This document shows positions 8,641-13,951 of a DNA stretch of 64,000 nucleotides, in pieces. Within the stretch, counting starts at the first letter, position 1, and every line of letters starts with the position of its first letter. This DNA comes from Rhodospirillaceae bacterium. GTDB lineage: Bacteria; Pseudomonadota; Alphaproteobacteria; Rhodospirillales; UBA2165. The stretch lies in the NCBI GenBank assembly GCA_018649725.1, contig JABIHH010000045.1, positions 1 to 64,000 on the forward strand, in the 5' to 3' direction. The notes beneath the pieces are model-generated. The model ran no database searches, had not been told where the DNA came from, and worked only from the letters and a program-made list of their open reading frames with translations. A program made the position numbers and the translations under genes.

Positions 8641-8708
8641 TTCCAGGTTATTCGCCGTCAGCTTCCAAAGCGCGGTAATATTTCGGTGACGGTTTATTGT
8701 TAAAAGAT

Positions 8709-8823
8709 GGATTGCCGGGTCAATCCCGGCAATGACGAAATTGTAGCAAGCCCGGTAATGACGAAATTATAGATTGTGCCGATTATACCACGCGTCATGC
8801 GCGGGCTTGACCCGCGTATCCAG
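8709..8823. repeat. REP-type palindromes, family 2 (GGAT...CGGGTCAA...ATGACG)
   Basis: Two copies of a short imperfect palindrome lie here in opposite orientation: 8709-8737 (GGATTGCCGGGTCAATCCCG core) and 8793-8823 (CGTCATGCGCGGGCTTGACC core). A truncated third copy at about 8747-8768 duplicates the end of the first. Another copy is at 28499-28529. Together with element B they fill the 420-base gap between the DapA-like gene and the ABC-F gene. Confidence 0.75.
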
Positions 8824-8845: not shown

Positions 8846-10732
8846 CTACACCTCAACCCCATCCAAAGCTTCGGTTGCTTCCAGCCAAATCGCTTCGTTC
8901 TCCTCGAGATCTTTTTTGGCTTTGCCGAGCAGCTTTTGCCATTCTGCAATTTCGTCGGGAGAGTTTTCGTAGAATTTAGGGTCGGCCATTTTGGTTTCGA
9001 TCTCTTCGATCTTGGCGTTTAACTTTTCGATCTTCTTTTCGGATTCGGTGACAGCTTTTCGAAAATGTGCTGTCTCCTGGCGTTTTTCGGCGCGGAGGCG
9101 ACGGGCTTCTTTTTTGTTTTCTTTGGGCTTAGCCGTATCGCTCCCGTTTCCGTTGGATTTTTTTGTCGACCGTGTTTCCAGCAAGAGCTTTTCATATTCT
9201 GCAAGATCGCCATCAAATACCTCGCATTTACCGTCATCAACCAGCCACAGTTGATCCGCCACGAGACTGACCAGATGGACATCGTGGCTGACCAGAATAA
9301 CCGCGCCTTCATAGAAGTTGAGCGCTTCGACCAGGGCTTCACGGGAATCGATGTCGAGATGGTTGGTCGGCTCATCGAGCAGCATGATGTGGGGCTTATC
9401 GAGGCTCATCAAAGCAAACAGCAAGCGCGCCTTCTCGCCGCCGGAGAGATTGGCGACCTTGGTGTCAGCGCGTTCTTGCACAAAACCAAAGCGCCCGAGA
9501 TGACCGCGCAGCCGAGCGGGCGGCTCCATTGGGCGCTTTTCGCTGATATGATCAAAGGCCGAGCCATCTGGGTTGAGCTCTTCTGATTGATGCTGGGCGA
9601 AATAGCCGACTTCAAGTTTTTTAGACTTTACCAGCTTACCTTCTTCAGGACTGAGCCGCCCGGCGAGCAATTTCATCATGGTTGATTTGCCGTTGCCATT
9701 GGCGCCAATCAGCGCAATGCGGTCATCCATATCGATCCTAAGATCGACATCGCGCAAGATTGGTTTGCCGGGCTCATAGCCAACGGAAACGCGGTTAAGC
9801 GCGATCAAAGGCGGTGAGAGTAAGGGCGGATGGGGAAACTCAAAAGAGATGGTTTTCTCTTCGATCACCGAGGCAATCGGTTCCATACGCTCCAGCATTT
9901 TTACCCGGCTTTGGGCTTGGCGGGCTTTATTGGCTTTAGCCCGGAAGCGATCGACAAAGGACTGAATGCGCTGACGTTCCGCTATTTGGCGGGCCGCCAT
10001 CTTGCTTTGGAGCACTAGTCTTTCGCGCCGGGTTTTCTCAAAAAAATCATAGCCGCCGGTATAGCGGGTCAGCCGGCCATTTTCGAGATGGATAATATGA
10101 TCGACCGAACGGTTGAGCAGAGTGCGCTCATGGCTGATGACGACCAGGGTGCCGCGCCATTTTTTGAGAAAGTTTTCCAGCCATAAGACAGCTTCCAAAT
10201 CCAAATGGTTGGTCGGCTCATCAAGCAGCAGAAGATCCGGCTCAGCAAACAGCGTGGCGGCGAGCGCTACCCGCATCCGCCAACCGCCTGAGAAATCGCT
10301 GCACGGGCGGTGCTGGGTCTCTTCGGGGAAGCCCAGGCCAGAGAGGATCGTTGCCGCCCGGGCCGGCGCGCTTTCCGCCCGGATATCGGCCAAGCGAATG
10401 TGAATGTCTGAAATGCGGCCGGGATCGGTTGCTGTCTCCGCTTCGGTCAAAAGGGCTGATCGCTCAACATCGGCAGCCAAAACCGTATCAAGGAGACTTT
10501 CCGGGCCAGCCGGCGCTTCTTGGGCGACGGTGCCGATCTTGTGCTTCTCATTGATGCTGATGGCGCCCTCATCTGGGGTAAGCTCATCCATAATGAGGCG
10601 AAAGAGCGTGGTTTTCCCAGTGCCATTGCGCCCCACCAGTCCCACTTTCTGGCCATCAGGGATCGCAATTGTGGCGTTTTCATAGAGCGCACGGGCGCCA
10701 ATTCGGAAGGTCATGTCATTGATATGCAGCAT
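8846..10732 (-). CDS. ABC-F family ATPase (Uup/EttA-like)
   Basis: A 628-residue soluble protein with two ABC ATPase domains and no membrane segments, the layout of ABC-F translation factors that act at the ribosomal E site. First domain: Walker A GRNGTGKT near residue 34, signature FSGGWRMR, and LLLDEPTNHLD. Second domain: GANGNGKS near 340, LSGGEKARL, and again LLDEPTNHLD. The linker between the domains is basic and helical. The C-terminal ~90 residues form a charged coiled coil (EKKIEKLNAKIEEIETKM), as in Uup-type members. It is divergent from ndk. Confidence 0.92.
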   Translation of the reverse strand: MLHINDMTFRIGARALYENATIAIPDGQKVGLVGRNGTGKTTLFRLIMDELTPDEGAISINEKHKIGTVAQEAPAGPESLLDTVLAADVERSALLTEAETATDPGRISDIHIRLADIRAESAPARAATILSGLGFPEETQHRPCSDFSGGWRMRVALAATLFAEPDLLLLDEPTNHLDLEAVLWLENFLKKWRGTLVVISHERTLLNRSVDHIIHLENGRLTRYTGGYDFFEKTRRERLVLQSKMAARQIAERQRIQSFVDRFRAKANKARQAQSRVKMLERMEPIASVIEEKTISFEFPHPPLLSPPLIALNRVSVGYEPGKPILRDVDLRIDMDDRIALIGANGNGKSTMMKLLAGRLSPEEGKLVKSKKLEVGYFAQHQSEELNPDGSAFDHISEKRPMEPPARLRGHLGRFGFVQERADTKVANLSGGEKARLLFALMSLDKPHIMLLDEPTNHLDIDSREALVEALNFYEGAVILVSHDVHLVSLVADQLWLVDDGKCEVFDGDLAEYEKLLLETRSTKKSNGNGSDTAKPKENKKEARRLRAEKRQETAHFRKAVTESEKKIEKLNAKIEEIETKMADPKFYENSPDEIAEWQKLLGKAKKDLEENEAIWLEATEALDGVEV

Positions 10733-10901: not shown

Positions 10902-11324
10902 ATGGCCATCGAACGTACATTATCCATAATCAAACCTGATGCGACCCGCCGCAATTTGACCGGCCAGATTAATGCCCGGTTTGAAGACGCTGGTCTCAGC
11001 ATCGTCGCTCAAAAACGCCTGCAATTAACTTTGGAGCAAGCTCAAGGCTTCTACGCCGTCCATAAAGAGCGGGCGTTCTTTGGCGAACTTTGTGACTTCA
11101 TGATTTCCGGCCCTGTTGTCGTCCAATGCCTCGAAGGCGAAGATGCGATTGCGAAGAACCGGGAAGTCATGGGCGCAACCAATCCAGCAAATGCCGACGA
11201 AGGCACCATCCGCAAAGACTTCGCCGAAAGCATTGAAGCCAACTCAGTTCATGGCTCAGACGCACCAGAAACAGCAGCCGAAGAAATAAACTACTTTTTC
11301 GCGCAAACCGAAATCGTCGGCTAA
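10902..11324 (+). CDS. ndk: Nucleoside-diphosphate kinase
   Basis: A 140-residue protein, the standard length, that transfers the gamma phosphate from ATP to nucleoside diphosphates. The signature [11 protein letters not shown] contains the phosphorylated histidine (His117), and the N-terminus [14 protein letters not shown] is canonical. The ATG at 10902 follows AGAGGTTCGGGGCA. It is transcribed alone and ends at a strong terminator. Confidence 0.97.
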
Positions 11325-11396: not shown

Positions 11397-11424
11397 CGTC
11401 ATTCTGGCGCAGGCCAGAATCCAG
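11397..11424. repeat. REP-type palindrome, family 1, copy 1
   Basis: A 28-base copy of the palindrome whose core is ATTCTGGC-GCAG-GCCAGAAT, here in the orientation CGTCATT...CCAG. It is the first of seven copies that mark the 11.4-13.3 kb accessory region. The others are at 12355-12382, 12439-12466, 12528-12555, 12680-12707, 13142-13169 and 13265-13292. Confidence 0.85.
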
Positions 11425-11479
11425 TCTACAGCGCGGCATTTAAAGGTATACGGAAAATGAGTGATTTCGGTATGGAGAA

Positions 11480-12063
11480 CTACCGCATACTGTTTAAATT
11501 TGTAATCAAAGCGATGTATTTACTTTTGAGACCTTTTGCGAATTTTGCAGAGATTTCAGCATCGTTGTATTGGAATAATTTTTTGCGTCCAAAGAAAAGA
11601 ATACAGCAGATTAAAAATCCTAATAATGCACTAGTTATAAGGGCTAAATAATTGGGTTTTAGTGGAGCAACCTTACCTTTCAATCTAAAGAAACTGGGGG
11701 AGGTCTTTGAATAGATGATTTCGACTGGTTTCGAATGAGTAGCTAGATTAGAAAGGCTCCATCTTCCCAATTTGTCACCGGGTACTTGGTGTACTAATCC
11801 AAGATAATCAGTATATGAATACGTTATAGTCCCTCCACTAAGAATATTTTCTTTTCTTCGGTTGCCAAATTCATCTTTCCAAACCACGGGTTCAATTTTT
11901 TCCAATGTTGCGAAAGTTTTACTCCAAAAAAATTCAACTGCACGTAGGTAATGCCGTGTGGCAATCCGGTAATTAAGTTAATTACAAAAATTGGTATTAG
12001 TATCAGCAATGACAAACGAATAATGTCTGCGAAAAAGATATTAGTTCGTGTAAATATTTTCAT
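11480..12063 (-). pseudogene. Frameshifted small membrane protein, DUF3592-like
   Basis: Two overlapping minus-strand frames read as one protein if a frameshift is allowed at a run of seven A (11926-11932). The N-terminal part, from ATG at 12063, has a membrane helix (IRLSLLILIPIFVINLI). Past the run the product continues in the other frame as WSKTFATLEKIEPVVWKDEF. It then has a beta-rich segment with TYSYTDYLG and PVEIIYSKTSPSFFR, a second helix (YLALITSALLGFLICCILFF) and a basic tail. The strand-strand-helix plan resembles DUF3592 proteins. It is AT-rich compared with its neighbours and lies between REP copies. Real decay and a homopolymer sequencing error cannot be told apart here. Confidence 0.6.
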
Positions 12064-12152
12064 CAAACTCTCTAGTTTTGCCCCATACCGAAACCAACTC
12101 TTTTCCGTACCCCCTTTGAACCATCCTTCAAACCGCTGACTTCTGCGACTCG

Positions 12153-12206
12153 ATTTGAACCATTTTTACCGGGGTTTTTCGTACACGTTCTAAAAAGTGT
12201 AATGGA
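12153..12206 (+). repeat. Copy 2 of the ~52 bp dispersed intergenic repeat
   Basis: This is the partner of 209-260. CGTACACGTTCTAA and GTGTAATGGAT are conserved, and the preceding TTTGAACC, T-run and CGGGG align as well. In this copy ACAC and GTGT could pair as a small stem around TTCTAAAAA. Confidence 0.55.
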
Positions 12207-12845
12207 TTATAGTATTAAAGCCAAAGATTGTTTCGCATGATATTTTATTGATGTATCGCGAACAGTCAATTCTCGGCCCTGCATTTTTTGTGGGGAACCA
12301 CTCTGGACTTAGTTGGGTTCATGCTGATGACGGAAAGGCCCGATATGTTGCCTCCTGGATTCTGGCCTGCGCCAGAATGACAGGATGTTTGGTTCGGCCA
12401 GCGGGTTTGGTTTGGCCGGGATGACGGTTTGTTGCCTCCTGGATTCTGGCCTCCGCCAGAATGACGCGGGTGTTTGGTTCGGCCAGCGGGTTTGTTTGGT
12501 TTGGCCGGGATGACGGTTTGTTGCCTCCTGGATTCTGGCCTGCGCCAGAATAACGGGGGTGTTTGGTTCAGCCAGCGGGATTGTTTGGCTTAGCTGGGAT
12601 GACGGTTTGGAGTAGCGGGACGTTTTGATTTGGGTAGGCCATTCAAAAACTTTGTAATTACCCGATCACACACTCTCGGCGTCATTCTGGCGGAGGCCAG
12701 AATCCAGTTAATGTTAATGAATAGGGCGGTGGAATATGTATAGAATGATCGCTTTGTTTGGCTAAATTCAATTGTATTCACAAAAACCGTCTCTAGTCCC
12801 TGCATAGCAATAGTGAACCAATGTTGACATCATCTCGGGGTAAAA
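12207..12845. other. Gene-free repeat region
   Basis: I see no credible coding sequence in this stretch. It holds the three tandem ~85 bp repeats (12348-12609), a REP palindrome at 12680-12707 and AT-rich flanks. Short open frames here cross the palindromes and show no protein-like composition. Confidence 0.6.
12348..12609 (+). repeat. Three tandem 84-89 bp repeats, each carrying a REP palindrome
   Basis: Units start at 12348, 12432 and 12521 (84, 89 and 89 bases). Each begins TTGCCTCCTGGATTCTGGCC, contains the family-1 REP palindrome, then GTTTGGTTCGGCCAGCGGG-like and TTTGGCCGGGATGACGG-like blocks. Units 1 and 2 are nearly identical; unit 3 has drifted (TTCAGCCAGCGGGA, TTAGCTGGGATGACGG). 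This is a tandem amplification of a REP-bearing unit. Confidence 0.85.
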
Positions 12846-13169
12846 TTGAAACAAGGCTATGTATATATTCTGGCCAGTAGGCGGAACGGTACATTGTATA
12901 TTGGGGTGACCAGCAATTTGGTGGCGAGGATATATCAGCATAAGAATAATTTTGCTGAAGGTTTTACCCAAAAGCATCAGATTCACAATTTGGTTTATTT
13001 CGAAGTACATGATCGAATTGAAGATGCCATCGCCAGAGAAAAAGCTTTGAAATTTTGGAAGCGCGCTTGGAAAATTCGACTGATCGAAGAAAATAATTCT
13101 GAGTGGGATGATTTGTATGACGGTATTGCTTGATGGGTTCTCTGGATTCTGGCCTGCGCCAGAATGACG
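12680..13169. mobile_element. Putative REP-bracketed GIY-YIG unit
   Basis: A REP palindrome at 12680-12707 (CGTCATT... orientation) and its inverse at 13142-13169 (CTGGATT... orientation) flank the single gene 12846-13133. The arrangement resembles a small transposable unit with terminal inverted repeats. A further copy at 13265-13292 has the orientation of the left one. That the nuclease acts on these repeats is inference. No target-site duplication could be identified by eye. Confidence 0.4.
12846..13133 (+). CDS. GIY-YIG single-domain nuclease
   Basis: A 95-residue protein consisting of one GIY-YIG nuclease domain of the UPF0213 type. The two defining strands read GYVYIL and LYIGVT, followed by the catalytic arginine helix (NLVARIYQHK) and the metal-binding glutamate region (EDAIAREKALKFWKRAWKIR). 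The likely start is TTG at 12846, preceded by GGGG five bases upstream; the next in-frame residue order (KQGYVYIL) is normal for the family. It sits between REP palindromes that point at each other. Members of this group are often annotated near repeats, and their cellular role is poorly known. Confidence 0.85.
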   Translation: MKQGYVYILASRRNGTLYIGVTSNLVARIYQHKNNFAEGFTQKHQIHNLVYFEVHDRIEDAIAREKALKFWKRAWKIRLIEENNSEWDDLYDGIA

Positions 13170-13264
13170 ATGGGTGGTGAAAGGGCTATTTTATTTGAAT
13201 ATCTTACTATCGAATTTATTCATGAAAACTATCGGACATCATGAAAACCAATCGATAAAAACTC

Positions 13265-13300: not shown

Positions 13301-13951
13301 CTAATTTGGATTGATCAGCGCTTGTTCGGAGTGGCTCGCGCCTTCAATTTTTACGCAGCTGTTTTCAATCGAAACACGGTTCTCCGCAATGAGACGAACT
13401 GCGAGAGGATAGATCTTGTGCTCTTCAACAAGCACGCGGGCGGCGAGGCTATCAGCGGTGTCGTCCTGGCGGATTGGCACGGCAGCTTGGGCGATGATCG
13501 GGCCGTCATCCATTTCGGGGCGGACGAAGTGGATGGTGCAGCCCGAAAAGCGCACCCCGGCCTTAATGGCGCGCTCATGGGTATGGAGGCCCTTGAAAGA
13601 GGGCAGGAGTGAGGGGTGGATGTTGATCATTCTATCCAGCCAGCGGTTGACGAAGCCATCGGTGAGCAGCCTCATAAAGCCCGCCAAACAGACCAGCTCG
13701 ACGCCAGCTTCTTGCAGGGCAGCGTGCAGCGCATCTTCAAACGGTGCGCGACCGTCGAAGTCTTTGTGATTGATCACCGTGGTCGGAATATTGGCTTTTG
13801 TCGCGCGGTCCAGCCCGGCGACATCCGGTACATTTGTGATCACCGTGACGATCTCTGCCGGGAAATTTGGATCTTGGGTGGCATCGATCAGAGATTGCAG
13901 ATTACTGCCACGCCCCGAGATCAGTACACCGAGCTTTAGTTTGTCGCTCAT
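13301..13951 (-). CDS. purN: Phosphoribosylglycinamide formyltransferase
   Basis: A 216-residue enzyme that formylates GAR using 10-formyltetrahydrofolate, step three of purine synthesis. The N-terminus [15 protein letters not shown] binds the phosphate. The catalytic residues are in [10 protein letters not shown] (Asn110, His112) and the downstream Asp in [10 protein letters not shown] (near 146). Length is normal. Its ATG overlaps the purM stop by four bases (ATGA), so translation is coupled. The REP palindrome just past its stop may stabilise the 3' end. Confidence 0.95.

Follow-up and report, generated by a model that had tools for sequence, protein, structure and literature searches.

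A GIY-YIG nuclease gene bracketed by inverted CGTC REPs as a candidate autonomous mobile element

Which enzyme, if any, spreads the CGTC-tagged REPs, and could it be a nuclease instead of a transposase? These repeats make up one of the two large REP superfamilies reported in 2013 and, in the portion of that paper available to us, "apparently lack a dedicated transposase" (Di Nocera 2013, PMC3733652). The same portion ties GTAG REPs to RAYTs. For CGTC REPs it records no case in which they flank a tyrosine transposase gene and only few, fortuitous links with other transposases, and it suggests that other transposases may move them (PMC3733652). The question is raised anew by a locus in a 64,000-nucleotide stretch of a Rhodospirillaceae bacterium (contig JABIHH010000045.1), the whole of which we refer to as the window. 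A sequence-only reading of this DNA had noticed a small GIY-YIG nuclease gene between REP palindromes and had proposed that the nuclease moves or maintains them, which remains an inference without cleavage or movement data. The features of the locus, an island of REPs between two neighbors named ndk and purN, are as follows.

10902-11324, plus strand: ndk, flanking the island
11397..11424, plus strand: REP1, left border of the island, 3' of ndk and a terminator-like stretch
11425..13264: the 1.84 kb by which the window exceeds the single-REP allele of G023 (a genome of its genus), with borders inferred by comparison
12355..12382, minus strand: REP2, with a TGTC head in place of CGTC
12405..12582: 89-bp tandem duplication, 94% identical, containing REP3 and REP4
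12439..12466, minus strand: REP3
12528..12555, minus strand: REP4, with a single altered head base
12680..12707, plus strand: left bracketing CGTC REP, head outward, 138 bp upstream of the start codon
12846..13133, plus strand: GIY-YIG nuclease gene, 95 aa, TTG start (Pfam PF01541, E 4.1e-15)
13142..13169, minus strand: right bracketing CGTC REP, head outward, 8 bp past the stop codon
13265..13292, plus strand: REP7, right border of the island, adjoining the purN 3' end
13301-13951, minus strand: purN, flanking the island

The names ndk and purN are those we presume from reading the encoded proteins. All seven palindrome copies that the sequence-only reading had counted within 1.9 kb were recovered (starts at 11397, 12355, 12439, 12528, 12680, 13142, and 13265). 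Its description of the gene as bracketed by a REP and the exact inverse of that REP held for the bracket and was slightly off for "exact," because the copies at 12680 and 13142, inverse to each other at 27 of 28 positions, differ at one loop position; the exact inverses, of 29 nt each, are 12680 with 12439 and 13142 with 11397. REP7 is a direct copy of REP1 with one stem difference. From the left to the right bracketing REP, the window unit measures 490 bp, and the TTG at 12846 aligns with the ATG start of a relative (L007). On comparison of the two sequences, the unit is located in a 1.84-kb island between direct REP copies at a site where the same-genus relative has one REP.

The window REPs read CGTC ATTCTGGC GCAG GCCAGAAT CCA and fit the CGTC-tagged superfamily, with a CGTC head, a stem of 8 starting with AT, a loop of 4, and a CCA tail; the description in the part of the 2013 paper at hand is a CGTC head, a stem of 8 to 9 bp starting with AT, a loop of 4 to 5, and a CCA tail (PMC3733652). 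The superfamily criterion of many genomic copies is also met in the window's genome. We found 24 copies of the exact core TTCTGGCNNNNGCCAGAA in the 3.69-Mb assembly, 6 of them at the window locus, and 39 matches (17 + 22) to one degenerate REP pattern, with no match in the backwards control of either search. Nine REPs were detected in the window versus none in 10 mononucleotide shuffles, and a second, looser REP definition gave 0.05 per shuffle in 20 shuffles of the window. Among the matches listed in a literature search confined to open PMC articles, with preprints outside its scope, there was no paper tying GIY-YIG genes to REPs, which does not prove novelty. The accessible passages of PMC12306157, PMC6006769, and PMC5082802 treat CGTC REPs or REP elements without a nuclease link, and the main text of Dunin-Horkawicz 2006 (PMC1564403) contains no word starting with "palindrom"; as far as the available part of the latter goes, it describes the recent insertion of a GIY-YIG domain into one HsdR gene.

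An AlphaFold2 model of the window protein (pLDDT 93) was nearest in fold to UPF0213 (Foldseek E 5e-4), with Slx1 also near (E about 0.02). A second aligner gave a middling Z of 6.9 for both UPF0213 and Slx1 and 5.7 for I-TevI, a GIY-YIG homing nuclease; all Z values in this comparison were below 8, and folds missing from the match list are not thereby excluded. The label UPF0213 used in the sequence-only reading found no curated-family support, as NCBIfam gave no match and the nearest UPF0213 structure is 25-27% identical; PDB UPF0213 chains match the nuclease profile at 1.1e-6 and 2.7e-4. The likeness of the predicted structure to Slx1, a branched-DNA nuclease, suits an enzyme acting on extruded hairpins and does not show such action. 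GIY-YIG enzymes are hydrolytic and are not known to carry out strand transfer. In 39 aligned proteins, Y7, Y18, G20, R28, and N84 are invariant and E65 is conserved in at least 90%. The features of the GIY-YIG superfamily are met, with GIY and YIG motifs, a central Arg, and a C-terminal Glu and Asn, a motif description taken in part from the accessible text of Dunin-Horkawicz 2006 (PMC1564403). Genomes contain up to 10-11 copies of the nuclease gene, and copies with stops or a frameshift exist. We rejected a role in anti-phage defense, for which there was one weak PADLOC match (E 0.0057, residues 3-37), and no nuclease relative was found among 50,697 phage records at E≤1e-5.

A lack of REP enrichment beside GIY-YIG genes in related genomes would have refuted the sequence-only reading; we observed strong enrichment beside this subfamily. 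We analyzed the best 80 named relatives, picked by protein alone from one genome per species (84,980 species; further relatives exist), with a REP finder requiring head, tail, and stem together. A CGTC REP was located within 500 bp of the nuclease gene on either side in 76 of the 80, upstream in 62, downstream in 68, and on both sides in 54. At 0-250 bp from the gene we counted 175 REPs in 39 kb (4.45 per kb), and at distances above 1 kb there were 81 in 867 kb (0.093 per kb), which gives a near-to-far ratio of 48. Within 100 bp, heads pointed mostly away from the gene (upstream, 49 plus and 14 minus; downstream, 50 minus and 11 plus; 80 loci), and REPs often occurred 10-20 bp upstream of the nuclease start codon. 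Besides Pseudomonadota, these relatives include Planctomycetota, Chloroflexota, Nitrospirota, Bacteroidota, and candidate phyla; most are metagenome bins, in which mis-binned contigs are possible.

Control open reading frames from the same 80 contigs (of 100 aa or longer and over 1 kb distant, called mechanically rather than annotated as genes) largely lacked this arrangement. A two-sided bracket with heads outward was present around 41 of 77 nuclease genes versus 3 of 567 controls (Fisher 1e-39), and any REP within 150 bp was present beside 73 of 77 versus 45 of 567; three loci with short flanks (L036, L038, and L058) were excluded. Small control frames of 60-99 aa had any REP in 4 of 137 cases and an outward bracket in 0 of 137, and a different GIY-YIG subfamily had no REP within 1.5 kb on either side at 14 of 14 loci. 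The association is thus with the subfamily studied here rather than with small genes or the GIY-YIG class in general. A further 70 alphaproteobacterial loci, a set enriched for genomes with many nuclease copies, had a REP within 500 bp in 53 cases and on both sides in 28. Pooling the loci, adding plasmids, and removing identical genes gave 155 loci, of which 24 lacked any REP within 250 bp when the results of two finders were combined: 5 of the 79 named contigs, 18 of the 67 alphaproteobacterial loci, and 1 of the 9 plasmid loci. Many of these 24 carry variant palindromes by eye, such as a perfect inverted repeat of 35 nt at L155 and one of 26 nt at L097. Inverted matches of at least 14 nt from flank to flank were detected at 64 of 146 loci with enough flank versus 2.7% of 300 mismatched flank pairs.

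We do not claim coevolution of REP type and protein. Over all 106 loci, REP length class required 11 changes on the protein tree versus 28.75 when shuffled, a difference that taxonomy confounds, and within 40 alphaproteobacterial loci it required 10 versus 11.1 (78 of 300 shuffles as low). With REP length class not following the protein tree inside the alphaproteobacteria, we make no claim of nuclease-REP specificity either. Two plasmid loci differ in their surroundings. A Rhizobium sp. CIAT894 plasmid (L295) has an alternating REP array after the nuclease gene (+ gene - + - + -) with the look of an amplifying mosaic. At the locus on a Rhizobium tumorigenes plasmid (L162), the nearest REP-like hairpin is about 180 bp downstream of the nuclease relative and none is upstream; this nuclease may be a settled copy, as it occupies the same place in 8 related plasmids.

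Gene units have matching ends. Where neither REP was farther than 60 bp from the gene (52 loci), unit length was 346-422 bp with a median of 370. Outward REPs stood on either side of the gene at up to 250 bp in 76 of 155 loci; there the left and right copies differed by a median of 1.5 edits and were identical in 22, versus a median of 9 edits between REPs of different loci. Few edits, too, separated left REPs from REPs located far away on their contig (median of 2.5 in 48 comparisons); of 17 comparable loci, 14 had left and right copies closer to each other than to the distant ones, 2 had equal distances, and 1 had them less close. Just inside the REP tails, the sequence matched better than in permuted pairs (5.3 versus 3.6 of 14), with a smaller excess outside the REPs (4.6 versus 3.8 of 14).

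The same outward arrangement recurs without the gene. Among 52 REP pairs with members no more than 150 bp apart and located over 600 bp away from the gene, 25 were heads-outward, 10 heads-inward, and 17 tandem, and 19 of the 25 outward pairs have a gap of 20-39 bp. In one genus (g52), a heads-outward dimer of about 89 bp occurs at 17 distinct places in 7 genomes (19 alignment rows, two places twice), with flanks that look unrelated by eye. Besides the query and its ortholog, 15 of 15 such dimers end within 2 bases of GACG and 10 of 15 begin within 1 base of CGTC, the other 5 alignments extending 3-9 bases further. A Sphingobium dimer shares with the gene unit its right REP and its inner tails (CCCGCT and AGCGGGA) and has a different left stem. 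Insofar as sequence arrangement alone can indicate, gene unit and gene-less dimer have the anatomy of an autonomous element and its non-autonomous derivative, and they meet the REPtron feature of inverted REPs bracketing a gene with gene-less doublets elsewhere. Pairs near the gene and not spanning it were 55 outward, 52 inward, and 24 tandem, and in a minority layout the gene lies between two complete dimers (Azospirillum) or between inward heads that adjoin dimers (g52). Because of these inward pairs and layouts, one simple unit does not describe all loci.

Fixed positions of gene and repeats in all relatives would have refuted the sequence-only reading, and we did not observe them. Twenty-one family relatives of the window have purN; the nuclease gene is absent at the window site in all 13 that have ndk adjoining it, and the other 8 have no ndk in the stretch examined. 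Eleven of the 13 have no REP at the site. One (G002) has a heads-outward dimer there, and in G023 just one REP follows ndk, at the place occupied in the window by REP1 through REP7 with 1.84 kb between them.

Other sites likewise differ in unit content among related replicons. Seven Sphingobium replicons have the unit in the gap between fnrL and a response-regulator gene, and 5 replicons examined lack it; of the 4 unit-bearing replicons that were aligned, one has a frameshifted gene. The TYG64 gap (L166) instead holds one double-headed palindrome composed of the left half of the left REP and the right half of the right REP, the TYG74 gap (L167) holds a palindrome of this type with changes, the TYG72 and TYG65 gaps hold other palindromes, and the S. 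herbicidovorans gap holds none. In g52, the unit is present at one site in G363 and G415 and absent in G286, G417, G060, and G188; G060 (L236) has a double-headed palindrome at the unit-less site and G188 a degenerate outward pair. In another genus (g188), the site that holds the unit in G226 is occupied in G410 by an outward dimer of a different REP type. Azospirillum lipoferum 4B contains a dimer-gene-dimer insert between sufB and sufC, a site with neither gene nor REP in 4 of 4 Azospirillum records examined (of 11 others listed). In Shinella, 3 records contain the unit, and neither gene nor REP was present in 4 of 4 examined (of 12 further records listed with partial matches). At several sites, different species have different REP insertions. 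In Sphingobium TYG72, a different dyad repeat (TTCGACAAGCTCAGCC type) was observed at about 40850-41000 of L309, where sister replicons have a REP dimer.

The comparison of empty and filled sites proposed by the sequence-only reading showed presence and absence of the unit, with flanks in Sphingobium and Azospirillum too diverged to read a target-site duplication. About 50 kb of four Sphingobium replicons (three fully aligned, the fourth at two sites) contained no clean fresh dimer insertion with a target-site duplication. Double-headed palindromes (CGTCA...TGACG) at unit-less sites are possibly excision scars or target sites. We keep open, without adopting it, the reading of them as a general excision scar: they occur at two independent unit-less sites yet are rare, with 4 distinct examples versus 486 ordinary REP hits across loci that total 1.52 Mb and partly overlap, and 2 were present in three shuffled sets.

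At the genome level, the nuclease is present in at least 122 of 385 alphaproteobacterial genomes (E≤1e-20), a lower bound due to a loose first pass that limited the candidates scored. By one degenerate pattern, at least 5 REPs were found in 55 of 122 genomes with the nuclease versus 22 of 263 without it (odds ratio of 9, uncorrected for phylogeny and genome size), and 44 of the 122 had no REP by this single pattern. A full rescan of the 22 REP-rich genomes (at least 5 REPs) without a strong match detected no relative in 17 and a weak one in 5 (best, 1.4e-12), indicating that REPs can outlive the gene or arise without it. Two alphaproteobacterial genomes of one genus (G300 and G378 of g231) contain 132 and 78 CGTC REPs with no nuclease relative on full rescan, for which another mover and ancient loss of the nuclease are both possible. 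Among 15 genomes selected because REPs or nuclease copies are numerous in them, the Y1 transposase of RAYT/IS200 type (PF01797) was present in 4 and had no match in 11, which include the window's assembly (88% complete) and G286 with its 115 REPs.

We observed the unit, its orientation, its matching ends, its presence and absence at orthologous sites, and its occurrence without Y1/RAYT. The interpretation given by the sequence-only reading gains support far beyond one locus, and neither of its two refuting conditions was fulfilled. The explanation that we favor, and hold to be fairly probable, is an autonomous REP-bounded mobile element whose only enzyme is a Slx1-like GIY-YIG nuclease and whose non-autonomous form is the REP dimer; hairpin cleavage by the nuclease and mobilization in cis and in trans are inferred, with no cleavage or movement data. 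The sole gene of this putative element would be that for the endonuclease of about 95 aa, its ends would be the inverted CGTC REP hairpins with heads outward, and the same ends around a short spacer would constitute the dispersed gene-less dimers. The nuclease may recognize an extruded REP hairpin, as a cruciform or as a single strand at a fork, and cut at or near the CGTC head or the loop, the exact cut site being undecided. Host repair or replication would then copy the bracketed heads-outward segment into a new site. Loss may occur by joining of the outer halves of two REPs, as hinted by the double-headed palindromes at two independent unit-less sites. Weighing against this explanation are the 22 REP-rich genomes without a strong nuclease match, the nuclease-bearing genomes and loci in which no REP was detected, the REP length classes that do not follow the alphaproteobacterial protein tree, the many inward pairs near the gene, the likeness of left REPs to distant ones, the absence of a readable target-site duplication, and the hydrolytic chemistry of GIY-YIG enzymes. 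We lean only slightly toward the broader proposition that these are widespread autonomous elements of about 350-500 bp in which the GIY-YIG nuclease alone recognizes CGTC ends and spreads itself and, in trans, REPs, perhaps including Neisseria dRS3.

The chief rival is homing into existing REPs, which we consider unlikely without dismissing it: a selfish nuclease would use REPs only as targets, its gene would be copied in by break repair, and the REPs would spread by another route. The GIY-YIG fold is that of a homing nuclease (I-TevI, Z 5.7), of the two alleles at the window site the shorter consists of one REP and the longer is bordered by REPs at either end, and double-headed single palindromes occupy unit-less sites in Sphingobium TYG64 and TYG74 and in G060. 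This rival fits the single-REP allele of the window but not the many unit-less sites without any REP (11 of 13 window relatives and, among those examined, all 4 records from Azospirillum and all 4 from Shinella), nor does it account for dispersed dimers with the same kind of borders, among them the Sphingobium dimer that shares its right REP and inner tails with the gene unit. Less plausible still is a host-serving nuclease that processes REP hairpins or cruciforms, with nearby REPs regulating its gene and the nuclease not moving them. A Slx1-like, structure-specific nuclease fold and REPs often 10-20 bp before the start codon would agree with such a role; the patchy distribution (at least 122 of 385 alphaproteobacterial genomes), up to 10-11 copies per genome, absence of the gene at orthologous sites, and copies with stops or a frameshift would not.

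The nuclease could also be a passenger, with a Y1/RAYT or other transposase moving REPs and the bracketed gene in trans, a reading supported by the link of GTAG REPs to RAYTs, by the suggestion of other transposases for CGTC REPs (both in the accessible part of PMC3733652), and by a Y1 transposase in 4 of 15 genomes. Against it, the same part of the 2013 survey reports no tyrosine transposase gene flanked by CGTC REPs and few, fortuitous links to others (PMC3733652), and Y1 is absent in 11 of 15 genomes, including the window's assembly and G286. We therefore disfavor RAYT as the mover and regard the passenger reading as very improbable, although only Y1 and no other transposase family was covered by this search. 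That REPs and small foreign genes merely accumulate in the same permissive intergenic regions was already disfavored and is scarcely credible. Different REP insertions in different species at several sites would be expected of such hot spots, yet the effect is missing for control frames, small frames, and the other GIY-YIG subfamily, and hot spots do not explain the preferred orientation or the matching left and right REPs.

RAYT/REPIN systems have a bracketed gene, doublets, and an intergenic location. The REP-bounded nuclease unit resembles them in its inverted REP bracket, gene-less doublets, and intergenic position, the RAYT side of this likeness, in which GTAG REPs accompany TnpA_REP, an HUH-Y1 tyrosine transposase, resting in part on the available portion of PMC3733652. 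It differs in having a GIY-YIG nuclease in place of an HUH transposase and CGTC in place of GTAG tags on its REPs, and Y1 genes are missing in 11 of 15 genomes selected for many CGTC REPs or nuclease copies. The window repeats fit the superfamily that includes Neisseria dRS3 and Rickettsia RPE-4/RPE-6 (Di Nocera 2013), for which the accessible part of PMC3733652 reports no associated enzyme, whereas here a GIY-YIG subfamily is bracketed by them. As a minimal single-domain protein, the nuclease is like the Slx1-like and standalone prokaryotic GIY-YIG nucleases (PMC1564403, of which part was available), and like I-TevI it has a nuclease fold employed by selfish elements. Unlike I-TevI, the window protein is a single 95-aa domain without a C-terminal DNA-binding part, has no intron, and is REP bracketed; as for a homing endonuclease proper, alleles without the unit exist and there are no cleavage data. 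In comparison with a classical insertion sequence, the only gene of the unit is that for the GIY-YIG protein, and the flanks are too diverged to read a duplication.

The CGTC REPs, left without an enzyme in 2013, now have a specific candidate, and the nuclease is a good candidate spreader of a REP family whose mover was unknown. If the nuclease moves CGTC REPs, REP-type repeats would be served by two unrelated enzymes, an HUH transposase and a GIY-YIG nuclease. A hydrolytic nuclease could then power a mobile element with hairpin ends, so that a structure-specific nuclease and not a transposase would be the motor of a major bacterial repeat family, and a function would be at hand for the many small proteins whose sole annotation is "GIY-YIG nuclease family protein."

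Two further features of the window were observed. Within the REP island, a 34-nt imperfect inverted repeat (76%) at 11442-12116 encloses an open reading frame on the minus strand (11480-11905; 141 aa with a hydrophobic stretch and no Pfam family), and this segment is possibly a second small insert inside the island. Outside the island, REPs of another type (29 nt, loop of 5) form a second pair with heads inward at 8708-8822, just past the 3' end of an ABC-type open reading frame on the minus strand (8846-10732).
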